A DNA stretch of 64,000 bases, taken from the NCBI RefSeq assembly GCF_023571765.1, contig NZ_JAMJXC010000004.1, positions 248,001-312,000 on the forward strand. Reading direction: 5' to 3'. The notes under the pieces are model-generated. The model was not told the origin of the DNA. It made no database searches and was given only the letters and a program-made list of their open reading frames with translations. Positions 22,925 to 39,144 of this stretch are shown piece after piece. The stretch comes from Xanthobacter aminoxidans. GTDB taxonomy: Bacteria; Pseudomonadota; Alphaproteobacteria; Rhizobiales; Xanthobacteraceae. A program made the position numbers and the translations under genes. Position 1 is the first letter of the stretch. Each line of letters starts with the position of its first letter.

Positions 22925-24055
22925 ATGACAGACACCCTCGATGACGAAGCCGCCACCCGCTGGCCGGATCGGCGCATCCTCGATCTGTTCGGCATCGATC
23001 ATCCCATCCTGCTCGGCCCGCTGGCCGGTCCCGGCTCGCCGGAACTGGCCATTGCCGTGGGCTCGGCCGGCGGCCTCGCCTCCCTGCCCTGCGCCATGTA
23101 TGGGCCGGACGATCTGAAGGCGGCGGTGGCGAAGATCCGGGCGGGGCTCCCGGGCAAGCCGCTGAACCTCAACTTCTTCTGCCACACCCCGCCGCAGGAC
23201 GACCCGGCGCGGGCGCTGCGCTGGCGGGCGCGGCTGGCCGACTATTATGTCGAGGCCGGGCTGGACCCAGCCGCCACCACGCCCTCCCCCTCCCGCGCAC
23301 CGTTCGACGCCACCTTCTGCGCGGTGGTGGAGGAGGTGCGCCCCGAGGTGGTGAGCTTCCATTTCGGCCTGCCGGCGCCAGACCTCGTGGACCGGGTGAA
23401 GGCGACGGGAGCGAAGATCATCTCCTCCGCCACCACGGTGGCCGAAGCCCGCTGGCTGGAGGACCACGGCTGCGACGCCATCATCGCCATGGGCTTCGAG
23501 GCCGGCGGCCATCGCGCCCTCTTCCTCGGCGGCGACTATTCTCAGACCCCCATCAGCTGGCAGGACGTGGCGCGACAGGTGGGCACCTTCTCCCTCGTGC
23601 CGCAGGTGGCGGATGCGGTGAAGGTGCCGGTGATCGCCGCCGGCGGCATCGCCGATGCGCGGGGCATCGTGGCGGCGCTGGCGCTGGGGGCCTCGGCGGT
23701 GCAGATCGGCACCGCCTTCCTGTTCTCGCCGGAAGCGAAGGTGCCCGCCGTCCACCGCGCCGCGCTTGAAGCGGCGACCGACGAAAGCACTGCGCTCACC
23801 AACATCTTCACCGGCCGCCCGGCGCGCGGCATCATGAACCGCGTCATGCGCGAGGTCGGCCCCATCGCGCCGGAGGCGTCGGCCTTCCCCACCTCCGGCG
23901 GCGCCCTCGCCCCGCTGCGCGCCAAGGCCGAGGCCGAGGGCCGGGACGATTTCACCAACCTCTGGTGCGGCCAGTCCGCCGCCCTGAGCCCGCGCCTGCC
24001 GGCCGCGGACCTCACCCGCAAGCTCGCCGCGGAGGCACTCGCGCGGCTCGCCTGA
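22925..24055 (+). CDS. Nitronate monooxygenase (2-nitropropane dioxygenase family)
   Basis: FMN-dependent TIM-barrel enzyme that oxidises alkyl nitronates, such as propionate 3-nitronate, to carbonyl compounds and nitrite. It has 376 residues. It carries the N-terminal HPILLGPLAGPGSPELA segment and the flavin-binding IAAGGIADARGIVAALALG / AVQIGTAFLF segment. A strong GGGAG ribosome site precedes the ATG. Some members of this family are enoyl-ACP reductase-like (FabK), but this one lacks the size and context for that role. Control by the divergent LysR protein is likely. Confidence 0.85.
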   Translation: MTDTLDDEAATRWPDRRILDLFGIDHPILLGPLAGPGSPELAIAVGSAGGLASLPCAMYGPDDLKAAVAKIRAGLPGKPLNLNFFCHTPPQDDPARALRWRARLADYYVEAGLDPAATTPSPSRAPFDATFCAVVEEVRPEVVSFHFGLPAPDLVDRVKATGAKIISSATTVAEARWLEDHGCDAIIAMGFEAGGHRALFLGGDYSQTPISWQDVARQVGTFSLVPQVADAVKVPVIAAGGIADARGIVAALALGASAVQIGTAFLFSPEAKVPAVHRAALEAATDESTALTNIFTGRPARGIMNRVMREVGPIAPEASAFPTSGGALAPLRAKAEAEGRDDFTNLWCGQSAALSPRLPAADLTRKLAAEALARLA

Positions 24056-24155
24056 ACCGCCCCACGCGGACACCATCTCCCGCACCGCAGCGAAATTGGC
24101 CTCCCGTTTGCACCTCCTCCCTCAGCGTTCCTGTGCGGATGGTTTGGAGGATGCG

Positions 24156-25115
24156 ATGTCGGACGATGCCCTGAGCCCGGTGATCGTGGCCAAGAAGACG
24201 ATCGAGGCCGAAAACATGGCCTCTTTCGAACTGATCCCCGCCGAGGGCGGCGAGTTGCCCGCCTTCACCGCCGGCTCCCATGTGGATGTGAGCATCCCCG
24301 GCGGCCTCGTGCGGCAGTATTCGCTCATCAACAGCGAGAGCGAGCGCCATCGCTACGTGATCGGCGTGTGGAAGGACGCCAACAGCCGCGGTGGCTCCAA
24401 GGCGCTGTTCCAGCAGGTGAACGAGGGCGATCGACTCGCCGTCGGCACCCCGCGCAACCGCTTCGCCGTGCCGCGCGACACCAAGCGTGCGCTGCTCTTC
24501 GCCCGCGGCATCGGCGCGACGCCCATCCTGTCCATCGCCGATCATCTCAAGGCGAAGAACATCCCCTTCGAGTTCCACTACCTCTTCGCGGGCGGCTCGC
24601 CGGGCGCGTTCAAGTCCCCCATCGAGGCGTCCGCCTTCGCCGCCAATACGAGCTTCTATTTCGAGGCCCTCGAGCCGCGCCTCAACCCCGCGAACCTGCT
24701 CGCGGACCGGCCGGACGACACGCACCTCTTCCTGTGCGGCGTGGACTGGTGGCTCGACCCCATCATCGCCAGCGCGCAGCAGAAGGGCTTCGGCGTCAAC
24801 CGCATCCATGTGGAGCGCTTCACCGGCAAGGCGCCGCCCCCGCTGCTGGACAAGGTGTTCGACGTTAAGATCGCCTCCACCGGCAAGGTCATCAAGATCC
24901 CCGGCGACCGCTCCGTCTCCACCGCCATGGAAGAAGCCGGCGTGAAGATCCCCACCTCCTGCGAGCAGGGCGCCTGCGGCACCTGCAAGGTGAAGGTGCT
25001 GGAGGGCGAGGTGGACCACCGCGACAAGCGCCTCAAGCCCGAGGAGAAGGAACAGGGCTGGTTCCTGGCCTGCGTCTCGCGTGCCAAAGGCGACCTGCTG
25101 GTGTTGGATTTGTGA
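24156..25115 (+). CDS. 2Fe-2S flavoreductase, phthalate dioxygenase reductase family (VanB-like)
   Basis: NADH-dependent reductase that passes electrons to an oxygenase. It has 319 residues: an FMN-binding barrel with RQYSLINSES, an NAD-binding domain with FARGIGATPILS, and a C-terminal plant-type ferredoxin domain with C-x4-C-x2-C in CEQGACGTC and a fourth cysteine in FLACVS. The ATG at 24156 is chosen because GGAGG lies 5 bases before it; an in-frame upstream start has no such site. No oxygenase component is directly adjacent, which is unusual, since these reductases normally sit beside a Rieske oxygenase gene. Confidence 0.9.
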   Translation: MSDDALSPVIVAKKTIEAENMASFELIPAEGGELPAFTAGSHVDVSIPGGLVRQYSLINSESERHRYVIGVWKDANSRGGSKALFQQVNEGDRLAVGTPRNRFAVPRDTKRALLFARGIGATPILSIADHLKAKNIPFEFHYLFAGGSPGAFKSPIEASAFAANTSFYFEALEPRLNPANLLADRPDDTHLFLCGVDWWLDPIIASAQQKGFGVNRIHVERFTGKAPPPLLDKVFDVKIASTGKVIKIPGDRSVSTAMEEAGVKIPTSCEQGACGTCKVKVLEGEVDHRDKRLKPEEKEQGWFLACVSRAKGDLLVLDL

Positions 25116-25535: not shown

Positions 25536-25612
25536 GCAGGTGTAGCTCAGTTGGTTAGAGCGCCGGTCTGTGGAACCGGAGGTCGGTGGTTCGAGCCCAC
25601 CCACCTGTACCA
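25536..25612 (+). tRNA. tRNA-His (GTG anticodon)
   Basis: A full cloverleaf folds from this sequence with encoded CCA. The acceptor stem GCAGGTG/CACCTGT pairs fully except for a G1:T72 wobble. The D arm is GCTC/GAGC, the anticodon stem CCGGT/ACCGG with loop CTGTGGA, so the anticodon GTG is at 25570-25572. The T arm is GGTGG/CCACC with loop TTCGAGC. Position 73 is A, and there is no encoded G at -1 able to pair with C73. That is the atypical alphaproteobacterial form of tRNA-His. Confidence 0.95.
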
Positions 25613-25724: not shown

Positions 25725-25754
25725 TTGCGTGAAATGTATGCTTGATCCTACATT
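25725..25754 (+). promoter_or_regulatory. Candidate promoter/operator of the GntR gene
   Basis: An AT-rich island contains TTGCGT (25725-25730) and TACATT (25749-25754) 18 bases apart, which could be -35 and -10 elements. The same stretch holds the inverted repeat AATGTA (25733-25738) and TACATT (25749-25754), a possible regulator site for autoregulation. It lies 70 bases upstream of the GntR start. Confidence 0.3.
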
Positions 25755-25824: not shown

Positions 25825-26646
25825 ATGTCCGAGACGTTGACCAGCGTTGCCGCACTGGACGCCGAAGGGCCTTTCCCGCCCCTCGATCGCGCCTCCCCTT
25901 TGCCGCTCTACGCCCAGATCAAGCAGCGGCTCATCGGCCTGATCCTCAAGTGGGACCAGGGCGACCGGCGCTTCTTTTCGGATGAGCAGCTCTGCGCCAT
26001 GTTCTCGGTCAGCCGGGACACCGCGCGGCAGGCGGTGGCGGAACTGGTGCAGGAGGGCCTGCTCACCCGCAGCCGCGGCCTCGGCACGTTCGTCTCCGTG
26101 CGCAAGCTGGAAGAGCGCTTCAATCCGGGCATGGACTTCCTGAACCAGTGGGCCGCTACCGGCATGCCCATGCAGGCCACCGTGCTCGCCTTCGAGCGCA
26201 TCGCGGCCGACGAGACCATCGCCGCGAGCCTCGAGACCGAAGTCGGCGCGCCGGTCCTGTTCATCAAGCGCCTGCGGGCCGCGGCGCGCGTGCCGCTCGC
26301 CATCGACTATCGCTATCTGCCGGCCGACCTCACCGCCGACTGGACGGAAGAGGCGGTGCATGGCTCGCCGCTCCACCGCCTGTGGCAGAGCGTCGATCTC
26401 AAGGCGGGTGACTTCACCATCGAGGCCGGCGTCGCCGGGCCGGAGGAGGTGGAATATCTGCACCTCTCCAAGGGCGCACCGGTGCTGATCCGCACCCTGA
26501 GCTATCGCGACGCCACGGGCCGCCTTGCCCTGTCCGGCCACACGGTGCACCGCGCCGATCTCGTGCGCTATTCGCTCAGCGTTCCCCTTTCGCGCGACGG
26601 CGCGCCGCCGGCCGAGATGGACCGCAGCGGCGTCCACGACGACTGA
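25825..26646 (+). CDS. GntR-family regulator, HutC/UTRA subfamily
   Basis: Transcription factor of 273 residues from the ATG at 25825; an in-frame ATG at 25801 would add eight residues. The N-terminal 75 residues are a winged helix (LPLYAQIKQRLIGLI, then SVSRDTARQAVAELVQEGLLTRSRGLGTFV). The rest is a UTRA effector-binding domain with PVLFIKRLRAAARVPLAIDYRYLP. HutC-type members bind a small effector, often a catabolic intermediate such as urocanate or an amino sugar. It is the first gene of a long plus-strand run of transport and catabolic genes and is the probable local regulator. Confidence 0.88.
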   Translation: MSETLTSVAALDAEGPFPPLDRASPLPLYAQIKQRLIGLILKWDQGDRRFFSDEQLCAMFSVSRDTARQAVAELVQEGLLTRSRGLGTFVSVRKLEERFNPGMDFLNQWAATGMPMQATVLAFERIAADETIAASLETEVGAPVLFIKRLRAAARVPLAIDYRYLPADLTADWTEEAVHGSPLHRLWQSVDLKAGDFTIEAGVAGPEEVEYLHLSKGAPVLIRTLSYRDATGRLALSGHTVHRADLVRYSLSVPLSRDGAPPAEMDRSGVHDD

Positions 26647-26703
26647 CCGCCGCGCCCGCCGCCGTTTCCGCTCCGGGCATGGCGTCCGGGGCACCGTGAA
26701 CAA

Positions 26704-26719
26704 GGCGCGAAAAAGCGCC
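26704..26719 (+). promoter_or_regulatory. Stem-loop before the solute-binding protein gene
   Basis: GGCGC (26704-26708) and GCGCC (26715-26719) enclose a six-base loop GAAAAA and sit just before the AGAGGAGG ribosome site at 26725-26732. It could protect the message or modulate translation of the solute-binding protein gene; no function is proven. Confidence 0.35.
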
Positions 26720-26738
26720 CTTCCAGAGGAGGCCAGAA

Positions 26739-27929
26739 GTGCAGTTCGGACGACGCAGCTTCCTGAAGATGGTGCCCGCCGCCGCCCTCACGGCCACCGG
26801 CACCGGGACCGTGGCAGGCCTCTGGAGCAGCGCCGCCCGCGCCGCCGAGCCGCTGCGCGTGGGCTCCATCCTCTCCGTGACCGGCCCGGCGGCCTTCCTC
26901 GGCGAGGACATGAAAGCGGGCCTCGAACTCGCGGTGGACGAGTTCAATGCCGCCGGCGGCATGGGCGGCCGCAAGATCGAGTGGACCTATTACGACGCCG
27001 AGAGCCAGACCCAGAAAGGCATCACTGCCACGCGCCGGCTCATCAGCCAGGACAAGGTGGAAGTGATCCTGAGCGGCGGCAACATGAGCGGCATCGCGCT
27101 CGCCATGGCGCCCATCACCAATGCCGCCAAGGTGCCCTTCATCTCGTCGGAGGGCGCGCTCGCCATCGTCACGCCGGTGGCGGAGCGCCAGTATGTGTTC
27201 AAGAGCACGGTAGACGATGGCGACGTGCTGGAGCGCATCGCCGACTATCTCGACAAGAAGAAGATCAAGAAGGTGGCGCTCATCGCCGATACGTCGGGCT
27301 TCGGCCAGGGCGCGGTGGGGCAGATGAAGATCGTCGGGCCGAAGCGCGGCCTCGATGTGATGTATGAATCCTTCGCCCCCTCCGACACCGACATGATGCC
27401 CCAGCTGACCCGCATCCGCGATGCCGGCGCCGAGGCCATCATCTGCTGGACGGTGACGCCCGCCGGTGTCGTCTTCCTCAAGCAGGCGCAGCAATTGGGC
27501 CTCGATAAGAAGACGCTGATCCACAGCTACGGCTTCGTCTCGGCAGACTACATGAAGCTCGCCGGCGACGCCGCCAACACCCTGCTCCTCGCCAGCCTCA
27601 AGCTGCCCGTGGGCGACCAACTGCCGGACAGCGACCCGCTCAAGGCCGGCATCCTCAAGCTGATGAAGGCCTATGAGGCCCGCTTCAAGCGCCCCGCCAG
27701 CATCTATGCGGCGGAATCCTACGACGCGGCGCTGCTCGCCCGCGAGGCGCTGAAAAAGGTGGGGGGCGATGTCTCCAAGCTCACCCAGGGCATGGAGCAG
27801 ATCAAGGATTTCCCCGGCATCTCCGGCGTCTTCACCTTCTCGGCGGAGCGCCATTCGGGGCTCTCGAAGCAGGACATCGTGCTGGTCAACTGGCGGGACG
27901 GCCGCTTCAACCTCGCCGACTACGCCTGA
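26739..27929 (+). CDS. ABC solute-binding protein, branched-chain amino-acid type, Tat-exported
   Basis: Periplasmic ligand-binding protein of 396 residues, type I fold of the LivJ group. It starts at GTG, 6 bases after AGAGGAGG. The signal peptide carries the twin-arginine pattern RRSFLK at residues 5-10, a hydrophobic stretch and an ARAAEP cleavage region near residue 36. The mature part shows SILSVTGPAAFLGEDMKAG and the ligand-pocket segment SGGNMSGIALAMAP. Members of this family in catabolic clusters bind amino acids, amides or aromatic compounds. It is separated from the LivHMGF genes by the two di-iron protein genes, an unusual order. Confidence 0.9.
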   Translation: MQFGRRSFLKMVPAAALTATGTGTVAGLWSSAARAAEPLRVGSILSVTGPAAFLGEDMKAGLELAVDEFNAAGGMGGRKIEWTYYDAESQTQKGITATRRLISQDKVEVILSGGNMSGIALAMAPITNAAKVPFISSEGALAIVTPVAERQYVFKSTVDDGDVLERIADYLDKKKIKKVALIADTSGFGQGAVGQMKIVGPKRGLDVMYESFAPSDTDMMPQLTRIRDAGAEAIICWTVTPAGVVFLKQAQQLGLDKKTLIHSYGFVSADYMKLAGDAANTLLLASLKLPVGDQLPDSDPLKAGILKLMKAYEARFKRPASIYAAESYDAALLAREALKKVGGDVSKLTQGMEQIKDFPGISGVFTFSAERHSGLSKQDIVLVNWRDGRFNLADYA

Positions 27930-27957
27930 CGGGAACCATCAACGGGAGGAAACAGCC

Positions 27958-28911
27958 ATGGCCCTTTCGCGAGACATGTCCGCCGAGCAGGCGTTCGAGG
28001 TGGTCCAGACGCTGCTGGACGCCCCGGAGGACCGCTTTCCGCTGACCTTCAATTCGGACCTGCCGCGCATCCGCGAGCTGTTCCACGCGGCGACGCGGAA
28101 CCAGTGGGACCCCAAGACCGACGTGGACTGGGACCAGCTCGATCCGTCCAAGTACACCGATGAGCAGCGCTACGCCGCCCGGCTCTACTGGAGCCGGCGG
28201 GCGTGGAGCGAGTACGGCGCCATCTCCGAAAGCCCGGCGCTGCAGGTGCGTTTCGGGGTGGAGAACCGCCCCTCCGACATGCAGCTCTTCTTTACCATCC
28301 GCTCGCAGGAGGAGGCGCGCCACGCCGAGGCGTGCCACGCCATGGCGGAGAAGCTCGGCGGCTATATCGAGAAGCCGGTGCAGCAGCTGTTCGAGGGTTC
28401 GGTCTCCACCCACGGCGTGCGCCGCGCCGCGCTCAATGCGGACGTGCCGCTGGAGGGCATCATCGCCGCCCTCGTCTGCACGGCCGAAGAGATCGCCTTC
28501 GACGTGTTCAAGCACCTGAACGACGTCACCCATGATCCCGTCGCCAAGCAGATCGTGCGCTACATCATGCGCGACGAGAGCCGGCACTGCGCCTTCGGCT
28601 GGTACTTCCTCGAAGCCATCTGCGAGCAGCTCACCCCAGAGCAGAAGAAGATGATCGAGGATGCCGTCATCACCATGATGGAGAAGGTGGAGCTGAACGG
28701 CTACCACAGCGCGTGGCTGGCGCCGGAGAACCCGGCCTCCAACGCCGAGGTGGAAGCCGATCGCATCACCTACGAGGCGGGCCTCGGCTCCACCGTGGAA
28801 GAGGTGGAGAAGCCGGTGTTCATCGCCACCGTGCAGCGCATCCGCGAGCAGATGCGGGCGCTGGGCATCGAGCTGCCCCCGTTCACGCATTCCAAGCTCG
28901 GGACCATCTGA
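27958..28911 (+). CDS. Ferritin-like di-iron protein A
   Basis: Predicted oxygenase-like protein of 317 residues, predominantly helical, cytoplasmic. The start ATG follows a GGGAGGAAACAGCC ribosome site. Candidate di-iron ligands follow the four-helix pattern: Glu85 or Glu91, an E-x-x-H pair at Glu119-His122 (QEEARHAE), Glu177 or Glu178, and a second E-x-x-H at Glu207-His210 (RDESRHCAFGW). The double E-x-x-H pattern is shared by ribonucleotide reductase R2, fatty-acid desaturases and N-oxygenases of the AurF type. The W-x-P-x-x-D-V-D-W box near residue 50-58 is also found in the paralogue. The exact reaction is not known. Its gene follows the binding-protein gene by 28 bases. Confidence 0.75.
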   Translation: MALSRDMSAEQAFEVVQTLLDAPEDRFPLTFNSDLPRIRELFHAATRNQWDPKTDVDWDQLDPSKYTDEQRYAARLYWSRRAWSEYGAISESPALQVRFGVENRPSDMQLFFTIRSQEEARHAEACHAMAEKLGGYIEKPVQQLFEGSVSTHGVRRAALNADVPLEGIIAALVCTAEEIAFDVFKHLNDVTHDPVAKQIVRYIMRDESRHCAFGWYFLEAICEQLTPEQKKMIEDAVITMMEKVELNGYHSAWLAPENPASNAEVEADRITYEAGLGSTVEEVEKPVFIATVQRIREQMRALGIELPPFTHSKLGTI

Positions 28912-28912
28912 C

Positions 28913-29848
28913 ATGCCGCTCCACGCCACGCGGGCCGAGCCCTCCCTGCCGCCGGTGCGGCTGCTGGTCGAGCGGCGCTTTCCGCTCGAGATGAACGTTA
29001 CGCTGCCGGACATCCGCGCCCTCTACGACACGGGCAAGGCCGGCCGCTGGAACCCGCACCGCGACGTGGACTGGAGCGCGCTCAAGCCGGAGAGCTATCC
29101 GGACGCGGTGCGCGCCGCCGCCCGCCGCACCTGGAGCCGGCGGGTCTGGACCGAGGCTACCGGCCTGACCGAGACGCCGGCCCTCATCGTTCGCTTCTGC
29201 ATGGAGGTGGGCCGGGAGATCGACCCGAAATTCTATCTCACCACTCGCAACACCGAAGAGGCGTGGCACGTCGAGTGCTACGACCGGATCGCGGAGGGCT
29301 TCGGCGGTCGCCTCGCCCGCCCCGCCGCCAAGGCCTATGAGGCGGTGTTCAATCGCCACCTGCATCGCCGGGTGATGGATGCGAGCCAGTTGCTCGACGC
29401 CTATGTGGCGGCCCACGCCGCCTTCGAGGATGGGCTGGAACTGGAACTGGCCAAGGCCTGGCGCGCGGCGGCGACCAACCCAGCCGTGCAGTCCGTGCTC
29501 GACCATGTCATCGCCGACAAGGAGCGCCACGCCGCCTTCGGCTGGCTCTATCTCGCCGCGAAGGCGGAGGGCTGGAGCAAGGAGGCACGCGAGACCATCG
29601 CCACCGAGCTGTCAGACTATGTGCGGGACGTGGTGCTGAAGGGCTATCACTGCCCCTGGCTCGCACCGGAGCACGCCGCGGCCGAGGCGGAAGCCGACGC
29701 GATCACCGCCGAGGCCGGCCTCGGCGGCGCGCCGCGCGGGGCGGAGGAGGATGCGCTCGCGACGTTCGCCGGCAACGCCCGTGCCCGCCTCGCGGAACTC
29801 GGGGTGATGGTGCCCCTGTTCGAGACCAACCGCATGCGCAGTTTCTGA
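28913..29848 (+). CDS. Ferritin-like di-iron protein B, paralogue with altered ligand
   Basis: Paralogue of the protein at 27958, 311 residues, starting one base after its stop. It shares the WNPHRDVDW box, the first E-x-x-H pair (Glu116-His119 in EEAWHVE) and Glu172. In the last metal-binding helix the aligned segment reads ADKERHAAFGW, so the position of Glu207 in protein A is Lys203 here; Glu204 is one place away. It may therefore lack one iron ligand and act as a partner subunit, or use the neighbouring Glu. A downstream ATG at codon 27 is an alternative start. Co-translation with protein A is certain from spacing. Confidence 0.72.
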   Translation: MPLHATRAEPSLPPVRLLVERRFPLEMNVTLPDIRALYDTGKAGRWNPHRDVDWSALKPESYPDAVRAAARRTWSRRVWTEATGLTETPALIVRFCMEVGREIDPKFYLTTRNTEEAWHVECYDRIAEGFGGRLARPAAKAYEAVFNRHLHRRVMDASQLLDAYVAAHAAFEDGLELELAKAWRAAATNPAVQSVLDHVIADKERHAAFGWLYLAAKAEGWSKEARETIATELSDYVRDVVLKGYHCPWLAPEHAAAEAEADAITAEAGLGGAPRGAEEDALATFAGNARARLAELGVMVPLFETNRMRSF

Positions 29849-29850
29849 TC

Positions 29851-29872
29851 CCTCGGACGTCTCGTTCCGAGG
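29851..29872 (+). terminator. Intercistronic stem-loop
   Basis: CCTCGGA (29851-29857) and TCCGAGG (29866-29872) form a perfect 7-base stem with an 8-base loop directly after the stop of di-iron protein B. No T-tract follows. It could reduce read-through into the permease genes or stabilise the upstream message. Confidence 0.35.
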
Positions 29873-30029
29873 AAACGGGCGGGCCTTGTGCCTGACCCGG
29901 ACCTGTCCCGGCCGTCCGCGCCCATCGGGGGGAAGCCCTGATCCTTCCGGAGCGCGGCGGCCGGGACTTTCATCCCCTCCCCGGAGGGATATTCACCCAG
30001 AGAGCTGCCAAAGGCCGCCCTTCACAGCC

Positions 30030-30911
30030 ATGCAGACCACAACCGCCCTCCTCCAGGTCCTGTCATCCGGCATCGGCACGGGCGCCGTCTATGCGCTGGT
30101 GGCGCTCGGCTTCAACGTGGTCTTCAAGAGCACGGGCGCGATGAATTTCGCGCAGGGCGAATGGGTGGTGATGGGCGGCATGGTCACAGCCCTCCTCATC
30201 GGCACCTTTTCCAGCGTGGGTCTCGCGGTGGTGGCGGCGGTGGTGCTGGTGGGCGTGGTGGGGCTCCTCTCCGAGCGCCTCACGGTGCAGCCCCTGAAGC
30301 GGCCGGATGCCCTCGTCATCACCCTCGTCACCATCGGACTCTCCATCGTCAGCCGCAGCCTCGTGATGTTGGTGCTGGGCAAGAAGCCGGTGGGCTATGC
30401 CGGCTTCTCCGGCAACACCGCGCTCTCCTTCGGCGGGGTGAGCATCCAGAGCCAGACGCTGTGGATCATCGCCATCACCCTCGCCTTCCTTGTGGTGATG
30501 CACGCCTTCTTCGAGCGCACCATCCTCGGCAAGGCGCTGCGCGCGGCGGCGGCGGACCGGGAGGCGGCGGCCATCGTGGGCGTGAATGTGGGAAGCACCG
30601 TGCTGCTCTCCTTCGGCATCGCGGCGCTGGCGGGAGCGCTCGCCGGGGCCATCGTCACGCCCCTCACCCTCGCTTCCTACGACCAGGGCGCCATATTCGG
30701 CTTCAAGGGCTTCAGCGCCGCCATGCTGGGCGGGCTCGGCAGCCTGCCGGGCGCCGTGGTGGGTGGGCTGGCGCTGGGGCTCCTGGAGGCGTTCGGCAGC
30801 TTCTACATCTCGTCCGATTTCAAGGATGCCATCGCATTTGCCGTGCTGCTGCTCATCCTGTTCGTGCGCCCCTCCGGCCTGCTCGGCCGGGCCGACATCG
30901 TGAAGGTGTGA
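30030..30911 (+). CDS. livH: ABC branched-chain amino-acid permease LivH
   Basis: Inner-membrane permease of 293 residues with about eight membrane helices. Family features are the GIGTGAVYALVALGFNVVFKSTG start, the FAQGEWVVMGG segment, and the cytosolic coupling loop with LRAAAADREAAAIVGVN. The ATG at 30030 is chosen, since frame extension upstream reads through non-coding sequence. No clear ribosome site is visible. It pairs with LivM (4 bases between) to form the membrane channel. Confidence 0.9.
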   Translation: MQTTTALLQVLSSGIGTGAVYALVALGFNVVFKSTGAMNFAQGEWVVMGGMVTALLIGTFSSVGLAVVAAVVLVGVVGLLSERLTVQPLKRPDALVITLVTIGLSIVSRSLVMLVLGKKPVGYAGFSGNTALSFGGVSIQSQTLWIIAITLAFLVVMHAFFERTILGKALRAAAADREAAAIVGVNVGSTVLLSFGIAALAGALAGAIVTPLTLASYDQGAIFGFKGFSAAMLGGLGSLPGAVVGGLALGLLEAFGSFYISSDFKDAIAFAVLLLILFVRPSGLLGRADIVKV

Positions 30912-30915
30912 GGCC

Positions 30916-31917
30916 ATGGCGAGCATCGAGGCGAAGACCGGACCGATGACCCACAGCCGCCTGCCCCAGCGCGGCCTCTCCCGCCATGCCCGCCTCGCCT
31001 TGGTGTGGCTGGCGCTGGCGGCGGTGCCCTTCGTGGTGCCCAATGCCTACTGGATCTCGCTCGCCAACCTCGCCCTCATCAATCTGGTGCTGATCGCCTC
31101 CCTCAACCTGCTGATGGGCTATGGCGGCCAGATCTCCCTCGCCCACGCCGGCTTCTTCGGCCTGGGAGCCTATGCGAGCGGCATCCTGAATGTGCGCTAC
31201 GGCGTGCCACCCTGGGCCGGGCTGCCGGCGGCCGCCGTCGTCGCCGGCCTTGGTGCGCTTCTCATCGGCATTCCGGCGTTGCGGCTGCGCGGGCACTATC
31301 TCGCCATGGCGACGCTGGGGTGGAACGCCATCCTCGTCGTCTTTTTCACCCAATTGGTGGGGTTCACCGGCGGGCCCAACGGCCTCCTCGGAGTCGAGCC
31401 TTTCTCGATCTTCGGCCATGCGCTGGACACCGAGGCGAAGGCCTTCCCGCTGGCGTGGGCAGTGGCCTTCTTCGTGATGCTCGCCATCTCCAATCTTCTC
31501 GCCTCGCGCATCGGCCGCAGCATTCGCGCGGTGGCGACCAACGAGCTGGGCGCGCAATCGCTGGGCATCGACAGCTTCCGGACCAAGCTCGCCGTGTTCG
31601 TGCTCAGCGCTGGCATGGCCGGCATCGCCGGCAGCCTCTATGTCCACATCAACCAGTATGCCTCGCCGGAGACCTTCGGCATCGCGCCCTCCATCATGCT
31701 CCTCGTGATGGTCGCCATCGGCGGGGCGGGCACCTTCTACGGGCCGATGCTGGGCGCGCTGATCTACACCGCCGTGCCGCAGATCCTGCTCGATTATGAG
31801 GATGCCGAGCTGATGCTGTTCGGCCTCGGCCTTCTGGTGGTGCTGATCCTCTTCCCGCGCGGCCTCGCAGGCATCCCCGCGGCACTGACCGGCCTTGTGC
31901 GCAGGAGGCGGGCATGA
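30916..31917 (+). CDS. livM: ABC branched-chain amino-acid permease LivM
   Basis: Second permease subunit, 333 residues, with about ten membrane helices. Signature segments are NLLMGYGGQISLAHAGFFGLGAY, ALRLRGHYLAMATLG and the coupling loop IRAVATNELGAQSLGID. Its stop overlaps the livG start in an ATGA, so the two are translationally coupled. Confidence 0.9.
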   Translation: MASIEAKTGPMTHSRLPQRGLSRHARLALVWLALAAVPFVVPNAYWISLANLALINLVLIASLNLLMGYGGQISLAHAGFFGLGAYASGILNVRYGVPPWAGLPAAAVVAGLGALLIGIPALRLRGHYLAMATLGWNAILVVFFTQLVGFTGGPNGLLGVEPFSIFGHALDTEAKAFPLAWAVAFFVMLAISNLLASRIGRSIRAVATNELGAQSLGIDSFRTKLAVFVLSAGMAGIAGSLYVHINQYASPETFGIAPSIMLLVMVAIGGAGTFYGPMLGALIYTAVPQILLDYEDAELMLFGLGLLVVLILFPRGLAGIPAALTGLVRRRRA

Positions 31918-32705
31918 ACACGCCGCGCAGGACCGACGATCTTCTGGAGGTGGAAAACCTCACCTGCCGCTTCGCCGGCGTCACCGCCGTGGACGACCTC
32001 TCCTTCCGCGTGAAGGCCGGGGAGATCAAGGCGGTGATCGGCCCCAACGGCGCCGGCAAGTCCACGCTGTTCAACATGATCGCCGGCGTCACCCGCCCCA
32101 CCGACGGCACTATCAAGTTCGACGGCGCGCGCATCGACCGCCTGCCGACCCACGCGCGCGCCCGCCGGGGCATCGCCCGCACCTTCCAGAACCTGCAGAT
32201 CTTCCGCGAGATGAGCGTGCTGGAAAACGTGATGGTGGGCCGCCATCTGCGCGGCCGCACCACCACCCTGTCCGGCCTCCTCCACCTCCCGTCCGTGGGC
32301 GCTGAGGAGCGGGCGATGGAGGCCGCCGCCATGGCCCTGCTGGAGCGCTTCGGCCTCGCCGCCAAGGCCCATGCGCCGGCGGGGTCACTGGCCTTCGGGC
32401 AGATGAAGGTGCTGGAGCTGGCGCGCGCCCTCGCCTCCGAGCCGCGCTTGCTGCTGCTGGACGAGCCCGCCGCCGGCCTGCCCCACGCCGAGGCGGACAA
32501 GATGGCCGAGACTATCCGCGACCTGAACCGCGACGGCATGACCGTGCTGCTGGTGGAGCACAACATGCGCATGGTCATGTCGCTCTCCCACGACATTCTG
32601 GTGCTCAACAACGGCCGGCGCATCGCCGAGGGCACGGCGGAAGACGTCCGTCGCCACCCGGAGGTGCTCTCCGCCTATCTCGGTGAGGAGGCGGCCGATG
32701 CTTGA
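31914..32705 (+). CDS. livG: ABC transporter ATP-binding protein LivG
   Basis: First ATPase of the importer, 263 residues. Walker A is GPNGAGKST near residue 43, the Q loop is in FQNLQ, the signature is the family-typical degenerate AGSLAFGQMK and Walker B is LLLLDEPAAGL. The end shows the C-terminal LAYLGEE-like region usual for LivG. It overlaps livM by four bases and livF by eight. Confidence 0.92.
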   Translation: MNTPRRTDDLLEVENLTCRFAGVTAVDDLSFRVKAGEIKAVIGPNGAGKSTLFNMIAGVTRPTDGTIKFDGARIDRLPTHARARRGIARTFQNLQIFREMSVLENVMVGRHLRGRTTTLSGLLHLPSVGAEERAMEAAAMALLERFGLAAKAHAPAGSLAFGQMKVLELARALASEPRLLLLDEPAAGLPHAEADKMAETIRDLNRDGMTVLLVEHNMRMVMSLSHDILVLNNGRRIAEGTAEDVRRHPEVLSAYLGEEAADA

Positions 32706-33411
32706 GGTGGAAGGCCTCGTCGCCGGCTATGGCGGCACCGAAATTCTGCACGCGGTTTCCCTGAAGGTGGCGCACGGCCAGTCCGTCTGCCTCATCGGCG
32801 CCAACGGCGCGGGCAAGACCACCCTGCTGCGCACCCTCGCCGGCCTCATCCGCCCCACGGCGGGGCGCATTTTCTTCGACGGGGCGGACATCACCAACCT
32901 CTCCACCTCGGCCCGGCTGTCGCGCGGGCTGGCGCTGGTGCCGGAGGGGCGCCGGGTATTCGCGCCCATGACGGTGGAGGAGAATCTGGAGATGGGCGCC
33001 TTCCGCCGGCTGTGGCCGCGCCGGGCGCAGGGCGTCGCCAGTGACCGCGACATGGTGTTCGCGCTCTTCCCGCGCCTCGCCGAGCGGCGGCGGCAGGCGG
33101 CGGGACTGCTCTCCGGCGGCGAGCAGCAGATGCTCGCCATCGGCCGCGCCCTCATGGGCCGCCCGCGCCTCCTGCTGTTGGACGAGCCCTCCATGGGCCT
33201 CGCCCCAAAAGTGGTGCAGGAGATTTTCGCCACCATCCGCCGCCTGAATGCCGAGGGCATGTCCCTCCTCATCGCCGAGCAGAATGCGAGCATGGCTCTG
33301 CGCAGCGCCGCCCACGGCTATGTCCTCGCCGAGGGGGCCGTCGTGCGCGACGGCGCAGGCGCCGACCTGCTCCATGACGACGGCGTGCGCGCCGCCTATC
33401 TCGGCCTGTGA
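32698..33411 (+). CDS. livF: ABC transporter ATP-binding protein LivF
   Basis: Second ATPase, 237 residues. Walker A is GANGAGKTT, the signature LLSGGEQQM and Walker B LLLLDEPSMGL. The ATG at 32698 is chosen because GAGGAGG lies just before it; a GTG 15 bases upstream overlaps that site. It completes a full LivHMGF importer with the binding protein at 26739. Confidence 0.92.
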   Translation: MLEVEGLVAGYGGTEILHAVSLKVAHGQSVCLIGANGAGKTTLLRTLAGLIRPTAGRIFFDGADITNLSTSARLSRGLALVPEGRRVFAPMTVEENLEMGAFRRLWPRRAQGVASDRDMVFALFPRLAERRRQAAGLLSGGEQQMLAIGRALMGRPRLLLLDEPSMGLAPKVVQEIFATIRRLNAEGMSLLIAEQNASMALRSAAHGYVLAEGAVVRDGAGADLLHDDGVRAAYLGL

Positions 33412-33426
33412 GTTTTCGGAAATCCC

Positions 33427-34272
33427 ATGCCGCATACCCTCATCGATCCCGCGCTCGAAGCCGAATACGCCCTGCGCCGTCGGCATCCCGAGCGCGAGAG
33501 CGTCTATGACGGCCATCGCCGCCTCGGCGCCGCGCTGCGCGCCACCGGCGGCTGGCGGCTCGACCAGCGTTACGGGCCGGGGCCGCGCTGCCTGCTGGAT
33601 GTCTTCCCGGCGGGCGAAGGGGCGCCGGTGCTGTTCTTCATCCATGGCGGCTACTGGCGGGCGCTGGACAAATCCGATGTCTCCTTCATCGCCGGCCCCT
33701 GCCTGGCCTCAGGGGTGACGCTGGTGGCGCCGGGCTATGACCTCGCGCCGGGCGTGCGCGTCGCCGACATCGTGGACGAGATGCGGCTCGCGTTGCGCTG
33801 GGTGGTGGAGAACCTTGCCCCCTCCCGCATCCTGATGGCCGGCCATTCGGCGGGCGGGCAGCTCGCTGCCATGCTGGCGCTCGATCAGGCGGAACGGGGC
33901 AACGGCCTCATCTGCGCCCTCGCCGGACTGTCCGGCGTGTATGACCTGCGCCCCCTGCGGCACACCTCCATCAATGCCGACCTCCGCCTCTCGGCCCCGG
34001 AAGCGGCGGCGATGAGCCCGCTGCTGCGTCTGGGCGACCTTCCACCCGGCGCGCGACTGATGCCGCTCTTGGCCGCCGTCGGGGGCGAGGAGACGGACGG
34101 CTTCAAGCGCTGGAGCCGCGATTTCGCCGAGCTGTGGGGCGCGCGCGGTGGCGCCGTGCAGCGCATGGAGCCGGCGCGCCGCAACCATTTCACCCTACTC
34201 GATCCCCTGGCCGATGGCGACGATCCGCTCACCCGCGCGATCCTCGCCCTCGCCCGCCCTCCGGAGGCCTGA
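33427..34272 (+). CDS. Alpha/beta-hydrolase, kynurenine formamidase-like
   Basis: Serine hydrolase of 281 residues. The oxyanion box HGGYW is at residues 73-77 and the nucleophile elbow GHSAGG contains Ser141; the C-terminal NHFTLLDPL holds the catalytic His. This set (HGGYW plus GHSAGG) is typical of arylformamidases such as kynurenine formamidase and related amide or ester hydrolases. Tryptophan-pathway neighbours (TDO, kynureninase) are missing, so a different N-acyl or ester substrate is likely. The gene follows livF by 15 bases and is immediately followed by the RidA-like gene. Confidence 0.8.
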   Translation: MPHTLIDPALEAEYALRRRHPERESVYDGHRRLGAALRATGGWRLDQRYGPGPRCLLDVFPAGEGAPVLFFIHGGYWRALDKSDVSFIAGPCLASGVTLVAPGYDLAPGVRVADIVDEMRLALRWVVENLAPSRILMAGHSAGGQLAAMLALDQAERGNGLICALAGLSGVYDLRPLRHTSINADLRLSAPEAAAMSPLLRLGDLPPGARLMPLLAAVGGEETDGFKRWSRDFAELWGARGGAVQRMEPARRNHFTLLDPLADGDDPLTRAILALARPPEA

Positions 34273-34665
34273 ATGCCCGCTCTCTCCCCCGTGCTCGCCA
34301 CCCCCGCCGACGCAGCTCTGCCCTACAGCCCCGCCGTGCTGGCAAGCGGCCCGGTGCGCACGCTCTACATTTCGGGACAGGTGGGTATCGATGCCTCCGG
34401 GCAAGTGCCGGCGGATTTCGAGGGGCAGGTGCGCGCCGCCTTCGCCAATCTGGAGGCCGTGCTTGCGGCGGCCGGCATGGGGCTCGGCGACCTCGCCAAG
34501 GTCACGGCCTATCTCACCGATCCCGCCGACTATGCCGGCTACGGGGCGCTGCGCACGGAGCTGCTCAAGGGCCACAAGCCGGCCTCGACCCTGATCATCG
34601 CCGCAGCGCTTGCCCGCCCCGAATGGCGGTTCGAGATCGAGGCCGTGGCGGTCGCTGCCGCCTGA
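34273..34665 (+). CDS. RidA-family protein lacking the canonical arginine
   Basis: Small YjgF/YER057c/UK114-fold protein of 130 residues; its ATG follows the hydrolase TGA without a gap. Family features are LYISGQVGIDASGQVP, a helix with ANLEAVLAAAGMGLGDLAKVTAYLTD and the ending RFEIEAVAVAA. The family's PAR-S motif, which carries the catalytic arginine of archetypal RidA enamine/imine deaminases, reads KPASTLI here, with no arginine nearby. It is thus probably a divergent Rid subgroup. Adjacent transport and hydrolase genes suggest it acts on an intermediate of the same pathway. Confidence 0.85.
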   Translation: MPALSPVLATPADAALPYSPAVLASGPVRTLYISGQVGIDASGQVPADFEGQVRAAFANLEAVLAAAGMGLGDLAKVTAYLTDPADYAGYGALRTELLKGHKPASTLIIAAALARPEWRFEIEAVAVAAA

Positions 34666-34668
34666 CCG

Positions 34669-35301
34669 TCAGGCCGAAATCCCCTGCCGAAGGGCCAGGA
34701 GCGCCAGTGCGATATCCGACTGGACGCCGAGCTTGGCGCGGATCTGGGAGCGGATGTTGGCCACCGTCTTGGGGCTGAGGTTCAAGGTCTCGGCGATGTC
34801 GTCCGTGCCCTTGTCGGCGAGGAGCAGCCGCAGCACCTCGAACTCGCGCGGGCTCAGCACCTCGGCGACAGATGGGGTCTCCTTGAGGCGGGAAAGCGCG
34901 AGCTCGTGGTCAACGTCCGGGCTCAGCGCCATGCGGCCGGCGAGCACGTCGCGCACCGCGCCGATCAGCACCTCGGGCGGGCTGCTCTTCGTCACGTAGC
35001 CCAGCGCCCCGGCGCGGATGGCCTGCACCGCGAAGGCGGCATTCTGGTGCATGGTGAAGACGAGGATGCGCGCCGTCCCCTCCCATTGCCGGATGCGCCG
35101 GATGGCCTCCACGCCGCCGAAGCCGGGCAGAGACAAGTCCATCACCACCAGATCGGGCCGCGCCTGCTTGAACAGCCGGTAGGCCTCGGCCCCCTCCCCC
35201 GCCTCCGCCACCACGGCGAGGCCGGGCTGGCGATCCAGAAGGGCGCGGTAGCCTTCACGCACCACAGCGTGGTCGTCCACCAGCATGATGCGTTGGGTCA
35301 T
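34669..35301 (-). CDS. NarL/LuxR-type response regulator
   Basis: Response regulator of 210 residues. The receiver domain shows the acidic pair near DD (residues 9-10), the phospho-acceptor Asp55 in VVMDLSLPG and a conserved Lys in VTKSSP. The C-terminal LuxR-type helix-turn-helix spans LSPREFEVLRLLLADKGTDDIAETLNLSPKTVANIR. Its start overlaps the stop of the kinase by four bases (ATGA). It converges with the RidA-like gene, with only three bases between the stops. Confidence 0.9.
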   Translation of the reverse strand: MTQRIMLVDDHAVVREGYRALLDRQPGLAVVAEAGEGAEAYRLFKQARPDLVVMDLSLPGFGGVEAIRRIRQWEGTARILVFTMHQNAAFAVQAIRAGALGYVTKSSPPEVLIGAVRDVLAGRMALSPDVDHELALSRLKETPSVAEVLSPREFEVLRLLLADKGTDDIAETLNLSPKTVANIRSQIRAKLGVQSDIALALLALRQGISA

Positions 35302-36677
35302 GATGCTGCCTCCCCGGCCGGGAGCGGGAGCCGCGCGCGCAGCAGCAGGCCACCGGCGGGCGCGGTCCCGATGGAAAGTTCGCCCCCCATGGCTGCCACG
35401 CGCTCGCGCATGCCGAGCAGGCCGAACCCGTCCGCCGCCGGTGCCGGCGCGCCCCGGCCGTCGTCCTCCACGGTGAGCGTGACGACATCGCCCGCCGGAC
35501 CCGTCTCACGCGCAAGGAGCAGCCGCACGTTGGAGGCACCGGCGTGCTTCGCGGCATTGGTGATGGCCTCCTGCGCGATGCGGTAGAGGCCGGCGGCGAA
35601 GGCCGGCTCCAGCGGGTCGAGGCGGCCGGAGACATCGAGGCTGAAGCGGGTCATGGCGCCGAGCCGGCCGTTCCAGCCTGAAACTAGCCCCTCAAGGCTG
35701 GCGACGAGGCCGAGTTCCTCCACCTCCGGTGGCCGCAGGCGCAGCAGCGCGCCACGCAGGGCATGCATCATGGATTGGGCGGTGCGGCCGATGCTCTGAC
35801 ATTCCGGAACGAGGGCTGGGCAATCGCGCGCCGCCGTCTGGCCGGCGAGGGCCGCCACCGCGCCGATGGCGGCGAGGCTCTGGCCGAATTCGTCGTGCAG
35901 CTCGCGTGCGAGCGCCCGCCGCTCCTCGTCCTGCACCGCGATCAGCCGGCGGGTGAGGTTGCGGCTCTCGTCAAGCGCCGCCTGAAGCCTCGCCGCCAGC
36001 GCATTGAACACCTGCCCCACCGCCGACAGCTCGGCGAGATCGAAGGCCGGCATACGGGCGGAGAGGTCGCCGCGCGTCAGGCGATCCAGCCCCTCGCCGA
36101 TGATGCGGGTGGGCCTGAGCGCCCGCGCCAAGGCGAGATAGACCAGCGCGCACAGCACCAGCAGCATGGCCGCGACCAATACGGCGAGGCGGCTTACCTC
36201 GCGCCACGCCCGCCCCGCCTGCGTTTCCGGGGCGAGGGTGACGGTGACAACGCCTTCCGCCGCCCCGCCCACCGCCACCATGCGCTCAGCCGTGCCCCGC
36301 GCTCCGAACAAGCCGTCATAAAGGCGCTGAAACAGCTCCGGCGTGCGCCCGTCGTCCGGCTCGGCACCGCTGCACAGGCGCTGCAAGCCCTCGGCGCCGG
36401 CAGGGCGGAAGGCGATGCACAGGCCGGGCGCCATCAAGGCCGGCGCAAGGCGCTGGAGATCGGGAAACACGCCGGGCGCGCCGCGCACCCACTGCATCTG
36501 CTGGCGCTGGAACGCGAGATCGCGGGCCATCAGATCGGCGATGCGGGCCACCTGCACCTCGCCCGCACGCACGCCATCAAGGAGCAGCCAGCCCACCGCC
36601 CCGACTAGGCACAGCGCCATCAGCGCGGCGATCTGGAGGGTCAGCCGGAGCTTGAGGTCGAGCCGGGAACGGGTCAT
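35298..36677 (-). CDS. Histidine kinase, HisKA_3/NarX-like
   Basis: Sensor kinase of 459 residues from the ATG at 36677; an upstream in-frame ATG at 36710 adds 11 residues. A first membrane helix lies near residues 15-37, a periplasmic sensor region of about 120 residues follows, then a second helix (VSRLAVLVAAMLLVLCALVYLAL), a HAMP linker, the phospho-acceptor segment ELHDEFGQ of the NarL-type kinases and a C-terminal ATPase domain (NAAKHAGASN; DDGRGAP; GFGLLGMRERV). It phosphorylates the co-translated response regulator. The signal is unknown; divergent to it is a DUF3280-like secreted protein, possibly a target. Confidence 0.87.
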   Translation of the reverse strand: MTRSRLDLKLRLTLQIAALMALCLVGAVGWLLLDGVRAGEVQVARIADLMARDLAFQRQQMQWVRGAPGVFPDLQRLAPALMAPGLCIAFRPAGAEGLQRLCSGAEPDDGRTPELFQRLYDGLFGARGTAERMVAVGGAAEGVVTVTLAPETQAGRAWREVSRLAVLVAAMLLVLCALVYLALARALRPTRIIGEGLDRLTRGDLSARMPAFDLAELSAVGQVFNALAARLQAALDESRNLTRRLIAVQDEERRALARELHDEFGQSLAAIGAVAALAGQTAARDCPALVPECQSIGRTAQSMMHALRGALLRLRPPEVEELGLVASLEGLVSGWNGRLGAMTRFSLDVSGRLDPLEPAFAAGLYRIAQEAITNAAKHAGASNVRLLLARETGPAGDVVTLTVEDDGRGAPAPAADGFGLLGMRERVAAMGGELSIGTAPAGGLLLRARLPLPAGEAAS

Positions 36678-36860
36678 CGGTTCACTCGCAGGCGGGCACC
36701 GGGCGGCCACGATGCCGGTCAGGACCTTAGGGACGTGGGCGCGCCGGCGGAAGATCGCCGCCGCACGTCGGGAAATCTTCCCGGCCCCCGGCGTGAACCC
36801 GTCTCTGGCCGGAGGGCGGCGTCGGCGGCACGCTCAGGCCATCAGACCGGAGAAACGACC

Positions 36861-37364: not shown

Positions 37365-37488
37365 TCCAGGCTCCCGGATGGCCCCGGCAGCCGTCCTTTG
37401 CGGCACGCGCCATGCTGCTCGGGCAGGAGATGTTCAAGCACTGCCTTGACCACTAATGTCCGCGGCTCTGCATTGGGAGGAGCCGATC

Positions 37489-39144
37489 GTGGAACTCAGA
37501 CCGTTCAATTACAGCCTTCCACCTTCGCTTCGCACCTCGGCCGTGGCGGGTGCTCTGGTAGCGGGTGCGCTGCTTGTCTCGGCGGTGGCGCAGGCCGAGG
37601 TGCCGGCCAAGGTCGTCGAGCAGCTCGGCGCGCCGGCCTCGATCAGCACGGGCTTCGGGCCGCTGACCTTCAAGGACGGCGTGCCGACGGCCGAGACGGC
37701 CGAGAAGACCTACGACATCCTCGATTTCAATCAGGCGCTCGCCGCCTACAACAACAGCTTTCGCGGCGCCTCGGCGCTCGCCATCGTCAAGGGCTTCGAG
37801 ACCATCGGCGCCAAGCCCGGCGATGTGGTCATCTTCTCCAAGCTGATGGATTCCCATTCGCTGTTCCTGACGGCCAACGCCGACACGGTCTACTACCTGA
37901 CCGGACTTGACCTGAGCAAAGGCCCGGTCGTGGTCGAGCAGCCCTCCGACGCGGTGGGCACCATCAACGACATGTGGTTCTCGTGGATCATCGACATCGG
38001 CGGGCCGGGGCCGGATCGCGGGCTCGGCGGCAAGTACCTGATCGTCGGGCCGGACTATGATGGGCCCCTGCCGGAAGGCGGCTATTTCATCGGGCGCTCC
38101 AAGACCAACTTCGCGCTCTATGCGGCGCGGGCCTATCTGAAGGACAACGATCCCAAGCCCGCGATCGAGAACATCAGGAAGACCATGAAGGTCTATCCCT
38201 ACCAGCCGGGCGCCTACGGCTCGAGCCTCGCGCAGGCGCTGGACGGGAAGGTCCGCATCGCCCCCGAGCCCAAGATCCTCGAGACCAGGTTCATCGAGGG
38301 CAGCGGCCTGTCGTTCAACACGATCCCGCCCAGCGACATCGGCTTCTTCGAGCTGATCAACGAGAACGTCCAGATGCAGCCGGCGACCAGCTACGACGTG
38401 GAGCTGGCCGGCCAGCTCGCCGCCATCGGCATCGTCCACGGCAAGCCGTTCAATCCCGATGGGCGGATGAAGAAAATCCTGTCGGACGCGGCGGCCTTCG
38501 GGCAGGCGACCGGGCGGGCACTCAACTGGCGCTATGCGATGAAGCACCCGGACTGGGCCTATTACAAGGACTCCAGATGGGGCAGCATGCTGTGGCAGGG
38601 CGGCGCCTTCTTCGAGACGCCCCCGCCCGTCTTCGAGGCGGGCGTATTCAAGCCCCTGCCGCCGACCGGCGCGCGGACGCTCGATTCCCGCACGGCCTTC
38701 TATTACGGCTACACGCTTGATTCCCCCGGCATGATCATGCGCGTACCGGGCATCGGCTCGCAGTATCTGATGAGCTTCCTCGATCCCGAGGGGAATCCCT
38801 TCGACGGCGCGAAGACCTACAAGGTGGTGCTGCCGCCGCACATCCCGGCGGCGGCCTTCTGGTCGCTCACGCTCTACGACAACCAGACCCGCTCGATGCT
38901 GCAGACGCCCCAGAACTATCCCCGCGCCGGCAGCCAGGGCTATCCCTCCCCAGCGGCCGAGGCGGCGGCGGACGGCACGACCACCATCTGGTTCGGGCCG
39001 ACCCAGCCCCAGGGCGTCGCGCGCGCCAACTGGATCCAGACCATGCCCGGCAAGGGCTGGTTCACCATCCTGCGTCTCTACAGCCCGCTGCCGTCCTTCT
39101 TCGACAAGAGCTGGCGGGTGGGCGAGATCGAGACCGTGAAGTAG
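37489..39144 (+). CDS. Secreted DUF1254/DUF1214 domain protein
   Basis: Predicted exported protein of 551 residues. The GTG at 37489 is chosen because a strong GGGAGGAG site precedes it by 8 bases and it exposes a signal peptide ending SAVAQAEVP. The N-terminal DUF1254 region includes FNQALAAYNNSF and TANADTVYYLTG; the C-terminal DUF1214 region includes FWSLTLYDNQTRSML and NWIQTMPGKGWFTILRLYSP. These two domains are widely found together in Gram-negative bacteria; their molecular role is not established. The gene is followed by a strong stem-loop. Confidence 0.87.
   Translation: MELRPFNYSLPPSLRTSAVAGALVAGALLVSAVAQAEVPAKVVEQLGAPASISTGFGPLTFKDGVPTAETAEKTYDILDFNQALAAYNNSFRGASALAIVKGFETIGAKPGDVVIFSKLMDSHSLFLTANADTVYYLTGLDLSKGPVVVEQPSDAVGTINDMWFSWIIDIGGPGPDRGLGGKYLIVGPDYDGPLPEGGYFIGRSKTNFALYAARAYLKDNDPKPAIENIRKTMKVYPYQPGAYGSSLAQALDGKVRIAPEPKILETRFIEGSGLSFNTIPPSDIGFFELINENVQMQPATSYDVELAGQLAAIGIVHGKPFNPDGRMKKILSDAAAFGQATGRALNWRYAMKHPDWAYYKDSRWGSMLWQGGAFFETPPPVFEAGVFKPLPPTGARTLDSRTAFYYGYTLDSPGMIMRVPGIGSQYLMSFLDPEGNPFDGAKTYKVVLPPHIPAAAFWSLTLYDNQTRSMLQTPQNYPRAGSQGYPSPAAEAAADGTTTIWFGPTQPQGVARANWIQTMPGKGWFTILRLYSPLPSFFDKSWRVGEIETVK

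Follow-up and report, generated by a model that had tools for sequence, protein, structure and literature searches.

A putative catabolic operon of Xanthobacter aminoxidans pairing a metal-competent ferritin-like protein with a degenerate paralogue

The locus and the closest described systems

Catabolic operons that bring together a dedicated importer, an oxygenase and a hydrolase are a known kind of system. We describe a putative operon of this kind in the 5.8-Mb genome of Xanthobacter aminoxidans, within a stretch of 64,000 nucleotides (contig NZ_JAMJXC010000004.1, positions 248,001 to 312,000) that is called the window below and to which all coordinates refer. Its ten genes (Table 1) encode a GntR/HutC-type regulator, a substrate-binding protein (SBP), two ferritin-like paralogues known here as D1 and D2, a LivHMGF transporter, an alpha/beta hydrolase and a Rid-like protein. 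With moderate confidence, we read the locus as a horizontally spreading catabolic operon for the regulated import of a compound, its oxygenation by D1/D2 and cleavage of the product by the hydrolase, in which the Rid-like protein would have a non-classical role. Its distinguishing features are a proposed oxygenase pair for which no curated NCBIfam enzyme family is reached, and a partner subunit with a lysine in its metal site.

Several described systems resemble parts of this operon. The PaaA/PaaC pair of phenylacetyl-CoA epoxidase consists of two subunits that share the ferritin fold, one with a full di-iron set and the other structural; its ligand pattern is Glu, Glu-x-x-His, an acidic residue and Glu-x-x-His, and it is encoded in a dedicated catabolic operon (PMC4498308). 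D1 and D2, as read here, are alike in these respects, but counterparts of PaaB, PaaE and PaaK were not found among the ten genes with Pfam or NCBIfam, D1 scores 21.1 bits against the PaaA model TIGR02156 (cut-off 280), and the best-listed solved folds are R2-like, not PaaA. R2-like ligand-binding oxidases (R2lox) and ribonucleotide reductase R2 provide the best Foldseek matches of both proteins, and both E-x-x-H motifs of D1 align with them; however, identity is about 17%, the R2lox model NF006200 gives D1 27.8 bits (cut-off 194), and D1/D2 are set apart by their catabolic context and by being paired paralogues. The Rut system likewise holds an oxygenase, a hydrolase and a Rid-like gene within one operon; the present locus differs in its missing Rid arginine, its unrelated oxygenase and hydrolase, and its Liv transporter. 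In class Ie R2 proteins (QSK/VPK variants), a lysine stands in place of a metal-binding Glu, as in D2, and the spacing Asp112–Lys237 (125) resembles D2 Glu81–Lys203 (122), positions that are presumably equivalent; three Glu are replaced there, whereas D2 instead would partner a metal-competent paralogue, with no sign of a radical (PMC11846895).

In the open-access papers searched we found no description of the operon and no characterised homologous cluster with a known substrate, the counter-example named in an earlier note on this DNA, which does not imply absence from print. Since the operon occurs in several soil- or plant-associated genera, it may point to a nutrient not yet assigned. It would also allow one to test directly how a ferritin-fold oxygenase makes use of a dead paralogue, and what Rid proteins that lack their arginine do.

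Recurrence of the gene set and the metal sites of D1 and D2

We identified 51 loci (46–97% identity) in a scan of named genomes with two D1 peptide patterns, of which 39 have full flanks, defined as at least 3 kb before and at least 6.5 kb after D1. D2 lies near D1 in 38 of these 39, and the other components were found at the following frequencies: GntR 30, SBP 30, LivH 30, LivM 32, LivG 33, LivF 33, hydrolase 28 and Rid-like gene 21. GntR, SBP, D1, D2 and LivHMGF occur together in 28 of the 39 (the core loci), with the hydrolase in 25 of them and the Rid-like gene in 18. The core loci belong to genera including Xanthobacter, Bradyrhizobium, Azospirillum, Achromobacter, Candidimonas, Variovorax, Comamonas, Ottowia and Paraburkholderia, and to several metagenome-assembled genomes (MAGs); another copy of the operon lies on a 1.09-Mb Paraburkholderia plasmid. 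Given this recurrence across Alpha- and Betaproteobacteria, the arrangement is beyond chance. Over 25 loci, the pairwise-distance vectors of nine components are correlated (r 0.80–0.95; 0.93 for D1–D2), as expected of a block travelling together, although the loci are related, so that the points are not independent and r is no probability. The earlier note had suggested a neighbourhood search for the full set; the mapping of genes across loci supports its idea of an operon for regulated uptake, O2-dependent oxidation and hydrolysis that recurs as a unit.

That note had also allowed that the di-iron genes might mostly stand apart from the transporter and hydrolase. This is not so among near relatives, whereas three remote matches lack the set. 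At E<=1e-20, D1 was detected in 5 of the 101 relatives' genomes; among 385 genomes sampled across the class, 5 match at E<=1e-15, namely the window's own genome, a second with 66% identity and three more with 25–26%. Near the last three, no D2, hydrolase or Rid-like genes were found: around L022 there are a GntR and a VanB-like reductase, around L024 a GntR together with remote Liv genes, and around L023 none of the operon's other components. Besides the 51 loci, L017, L018 and L019 were used in gene mapping, in the residue counts of the hydrolase and Rid-like protein and for upstream regions, and L017 also in the D1 tree. L020, L021 and L025 were taken as the same genomes as L030, L041 and L026, and only the latter were counted; L068 and L069 come from a single MAG. 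Two recurring gene-caller families (clusters 6 and 8) were discarded as antisense shadows of operon genes, judged by position.

D1 and D2 share 36% identity. We aligned D1 in 46 rows (43 of the 51 loci, with two rows each from L051 and L052, and the window) and D2 in 42 rows (41 of 46 loci and the window). Residues E85, E91, E119, H122, E177, E207 and H210 of D1 are invariant in 46/46 rows. Of the eight D1 loci left out of the alignment, seven are complete and have every ligand, and L075 breaks off after its first E-x-x-H; the ligands are thus intact in 8/8 further complete rows, L017 included. D1 therefore has the features of a dimetal carboxylate protein, a helical bundle carrying E, E-x-x-H, E and E-x-x-H (46/46 rows, AF2, Foldseek). 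A phmmer alignment pairs E119/H122 and E207/H210 with the E-x-x-H motifs of R2lox. It pairs the third-helix Glu of R2lox with D1 E178 (conserved in 36/46) rather than with the invariant E177 (46/46), and we therefore assigned this ligand by conservation.

D2 lacks this ligand set. At the E207 position it has Lys in 38, Tyr in 3 and Arg in 1 of 42 rows and Glu in none, and the second E-x-x-H of the window protein reads K203-E-R-H206. The E177 position is Asp in 38/42, and H122 is lost in 13/42. Five D2 loci were left out of the alignment: L045 is truncated, and the other four have the Lys. At this position Lys also occurs in the partner proteins of L066, L069 and L074, and the actinobacterial partner in L074 keeps it with nearly every other ligand gone. 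Both AF2 models are of high confidence (D1 pLDDT 88.9, pTM 0.85; D2 pLDDT 91.3, pTM 0.88), and the Foldseek first rows of both are R2-like oxidases (D1 E 2.5e-6, TM 0.63; D2 E 2e-4, TM 0.57).

The earlier note had called these two paralogous di-iron proteins. Their paralogy stands and so does the di-iron assignment of D1, whereas that of D2 falls with its last Glu ligand, missing in 42/42 rows. Because of this loss, the pair is better read, by analogy with PaaA/PaaC, as a catalytic subunit with a metal-site-degenerate partner than as two di-iron enzymes. D1 would activate O2 and oxygenate the imported molecule, and D2 would form a heteromeric complex with D1 and perform no metal chemistry itself, like PaaC for PaaA.

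Hydrolytic step, substrate and rival explanations

D1, D2 and the hydrolase stand together without LivHMGF in the fetched stretches of L051, L052, L054 and L060 (L052 and L060 being short contigs), and these three therefore look like the enzyme core. In L051 and L052, D1 is duplicated in tandem ahead of D2 and the hydrolase. In the hydrolase, H73, G74, G75, W77, G139-H-S141-A-G143 and H254 show no more than one exception among 35 sequences, that of the window among them; we take these to be the HGGxW oxyanion motif, the GxSxG nucleophile and the catalytic His. Its third-best solved relative is a kynurenine formamidase, and the enzyme would cleave what the oxygenase produces, an amide or N-acyl bond being the most likely target. 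Indirect support for amide hydrolysis comes from an amidase-signature gene in L048, L056, L071, L072 and L017, where the hydrolase was not found (L071 is cut by a contig end). The L056 copy matches Pfam PF01425, and a tblastn search with one amidase (E<=1e-6) gave no match in the 32 hydrolase loci of the 51. On the D1 tree the amidase label requires two changes (bootstrap range 2–3).

Other neighbours point the same way. Creatininase-type amidohydrolases stand beside D1 in L041, L066, L070, L074 and L076. A sister clade with the order D2–D1 (L062, L064, L065, L068 and L073) carries a molybdenum hydroxylase, a UbiD decarboxylase in four of the five loci (not L068), and in some a Liv or Rid-like gene. 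Together, the amidase, creatininase, molybdenum hydroxylase and UbiD neighbours would suggest oxidation followed by amide-like cleavage in an aromatic or heteroaromatic setting. We infer a nitrogenous substrate mainly from the kynurenine formamidase-like, amidase-signature and creatininase genes beside D1/D2. Homarine, and imidazole with creatininase, were considered as substrate guesses, and no support for them was found in the open-access literature. The actinobacterial D1 clusters with a creatininase-type protein (L066, L070 and L074) share genes that by eye are zinc alcohol dehydrogenase-like and a methylmalonyl-CoA-mutase-type pair, and L066 and L074 have a TenA-like gene. In L068 and L069 the gene adjoining D1 is by eye ferredoxin-NADP reductase-like.

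Several points weigh against the proposed sequence of import, oxygenation and amide cleavage. The D1 ligands are assigned by conservation, and the third could be E177 or E178 and the first E85 or E91. Several acidic residues persist in D2, and the protein may still be able to hold a single metal. The modelled fold of D1 also fits proteins that do not oxygenate a substrate, such as R2, and no reductase or ferredoxin of a dedicated kind is present among the ten operon genes. As to the cleaved bond, the solved chain that matches the hydrolase best carries the name Lipase 1, and the best NCBIfam score of the enzyme is with HaHSL_fam, the HSL lipases (160.8 bits, below the cut-off of 320), a resemblance that makes ester hydrolysis possible. 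The well-supported branches of the D1 tree force one amidase change, so the swap may be a single event, and in L031 a second esterase is present while hydrolase and amidase are both missing. Finally, selection by two D1 peptide patterns means that distant relatives with other neighbours are under-sampled among the 51 loci.

A bolder form of the proposal is tentative: D1/D2 could represent a class of R2-like oxygenase not described so far, built of two subunits, where the metal of D2 has been swapped for a Lys that nearly every D2 examined retains. Such an enzyme would open an N-heterocycle oxidatively after its import, and amide hydrolases that can stand in for one another would then cut the N-acyl product.

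It is also conceivable, though unlikely, that the substrate contains no nitrogen, and that the operon takes up and oxygenates an aromatic or alicyclic acid before the hydrolase opens an ester- or lactone-like product. The lipase scores just given would suit such chemistry, as would a second HSL-type esterase in 10 of the 51 loci and an SBP whose nearest solved structures are 3sg0 and 4dqd, which we take to be Rhodopseudomonas receptors for aromatic acids. On the other hand, this view leaves aside the amidase-signature genes that replace the hydrolase and the creatininase-type amidohydrolases of five loci.

A somewhat less probable alternative is that D1 is an AurF-like N-oxygenase, converting an amine to a hydroxylamine or a nitroso or nitro compound rather than oxygenating carbon. 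AurF is a p-aminobenzoate N-oxygenase in which an extra His, four residues ahead of the last Glu, serves as a ligand. The Pfam AurF family (PF11583) is matched at E<=0.001 by 44/46 D1 rows, but the match of the window D1 is marginal (30.0 bits against a cut-off of 29.6), and DUF455 and R2 models match D1 weakly too. D2 reaches no Pfam family, and AurF is matched, weakly, by 1/42 D2 rows. The position of the extra His is occupied in D1 by Ile in 35 and Val in 11 of 46 rows, and the nearest folds of D1 are R2-like oxidases. AurF and its relatives CmlI and DnfA do act on nitrogen (PMC11440038).

The Rid-like protein bears on the last alternative. In RidA-type proteins a change of the Arg (position 105 in RidA, 104 in RutC) almost abolishes imine hydrolysis; the Arg is absent from Rid4–7 and replaced by Ser in about 10% of RidA (PMC4433059). 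RutC possesses the conserved Arg (PMC8113886). Among 27 sequences from the operon, that of the window included, 21 have Ser and 6 Ala at this position and none has Arg, so the enamine/imine clean-up that the earlier note had proposed is unsupported by sequence. Its analogy with Rut fails at this step and also in the type of oxygenase and hydrolase. Rut-like nitrogen scavenging, with O2-dependent ring attack, amide hydrolysis, Rid removal of an enamine or imine and both di-iron proteins catalytic, is thus improbable, since the oxygenase–hydrolase–Rid-like gene order and a Rid-like gene in 23 of the 51 loci are outweighed by the absent Arg, by the D2 metal site broken in 42/42 rows and by the failure to find the gene in 10 of the 28 core loci, so that the step looks dispensable. 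In our preferred reading the Rid-like protein would serve a role other than classical imine hydrolysis, and another activity is possible.

Transport, regulation and genomic setting

The layout is that of the earlier note, nine plus-strand genes tightly spaced behind a GntR gene, as coordinates, gaps and Pfam confirm. Successive gaps from GntR to the Rid-like gene are 92, 28, 1, 181, 4, −4, −23, 15 and 0 bp, and the sole wide gap 3' of the SBP gene is that between D2 and LivH. Pfam matches include Peripla_BP_6, two BPD_transp_2, two ABC_tran, Abhydrolase_3 and Ribonuc_L-PSP. Xanthobacter sp. YC-JY1 provides the nearest named relative in the set of retrieved loci.

Table 1. Features of the operon in the window (gene starts are our choice among in-frame starts)
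Feature	Position	Strand	Basis or remark
Probable GntR operator, 22-bp palindrome AATGTATG-N6-C(A/C)TACATT	25733..25754		92 bp before gntR start
GntR/HutC-type (UTRA) regulator	25825..26646	+	Pfam GntR/UTRA; 30/39 full-flank loci
Binding protein (SBP), HAAT/Peripla_BP_6, GTG start	26739..27929	+	Pfam; twin-arginine signal in this lineage
D1, ferritin-like (R2/AurF-like), complete di-metal ligand set, proposed catalytic oxygenase subunit	27958..28911	+	
D2, D1 paralogue, broken metal site (K203 = E207-equivalent), proposed non-catalytic partner subunit	28913..29848	+	
LivH-type permease	30030..30911	+	Pfam/NCBIfam
LivM-type permease	30916..31917	+	Pfam/NCBIfam
LivG-type ATPase	31914..32705	+	Pfam/NCBIfam
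LivF-type ATPase, GTG start	32683..33411	+	Pfam/NCBIfam
Alpha/beta hydrolase, kynurenine formamidase-related (HGGYW, GHSAGG motifs)	33427..34272	+	Abhydrolase_3
Rid-like protein, Ser replacing catalytic Arg	34273..34665	+	Ribonuc_L-PSP

All five parts of a HAAT transporter are present by Pfam and NCBIfam, and the binding protein with LivHMGF would import a small organic molecule. Every listed score with the NCBIfam amino-acid/Liv and urea transporter models is below its cut-off, so the family name does not give the ligand. The earlier note had described the binding protein as exported by the twin-arginine (Tat) pathway. The signal is indeed present in the window protein (GRRSFLK), but among 35 related binding-protein loci just 6 were found to carry the strict RRxF[LIVMF] motif, which indicates that Tat export is lineage-specific and rules it out as a defining feature of the operon.

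GntR would repress the operon from the upstream palindrome until an inducer arrives. The palindrome is a probable operator on the strength of its sequence: 13 of 14 half-site bases are matched, 0.06 matches are expected by chance in the window, and the site is the only match without mismatch in the 5.8-Mb genome, for a pattern that was written with the window site in view. It is perfect (14/14) in L026, L056 and L017, a circular match because the half-sites were derived from these loci, and the window, L018 and L019 are kin of L026. It beats all 200 mononucleotide shuffles in 11 of 38 upstream regions and not in the other 27. With up to three mismatches, the genome holds 7+7 sites for the pattern against 7+4 for a reversed control, and the sites other than that of the window are therefore at chance level. 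The next-best match (G000:C2:72658, two mismatches) lies among genes that by eye are methyl- or acyltransferase-like and was dropped, and GTNTANAC, present in five upstream regions, was abandoned as an operator in favour of the palindrome. Four Achromobacter loci have a different palindrome upstream, TCTAGTTAACTAGA, which suggests that the operator probably drifted along with the regulator.

Proteins of about 410–460 aa are encoded divergently from gntR, on the opposite strand, in 17 loci (L017, L038–L047, L049, L050, L053, L054, L056 and L076), and none was seen upstream of gntR in the window. They fall into four sequence clusters that look like one family; four representatives had no NCBIfam match at E<=1e-5, and the one tested had no Pfam match.

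A tRNA-His gene lies at 25536–25612, and its 3' end is the limit of similarity, within two bases, in 12 of 13 other genomes of the genus; in the remaining one (G003), similarity to the upstream stretch extends nine bases further. The tRNA-His 3' end is a possible insertion site. Across the 14 genus genomes, D1 was found in four (G000, G001, G003 and G011) and not in the other ten. The operon lies just beyond tRNA-His in G000 and G003, about 29 kb off in G001 and about 0.8 Mb off in G011. This fits a variable region beside tRNA-His as one of several homes of the operon, with gain or loss within the genus.

Upstream of the operon, at 22925–25115, lie a VanB-like reductase gene and a nitronate-monooxygenase-like gene, both named by eye, which were considered and rejected as electron donors. 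The tRNA-His end was matched in all 14 genus genomes and the 3' end of the reductase in 12 (not G008 or G010), against D1 in 4 of 14, which argues that the reductase is not linked to the operon, although it may still have a role. These genes adjoin the operon in G003 (L018) and were not found within the stretches read in G001 and G011.

On the other side, a response regulator and a histidine kinase (by eye) face the operon from the minus strand at 34669-36710. Among 21 genomes searched, a close kinase (92%) was present only in G001, the others being at 38–40%. A large protein at 37456-39144, presumably DUF1254/DUF1214-like, has a close copy (80%) in one other genome among the 14 of the genus and more distant ones in three places.

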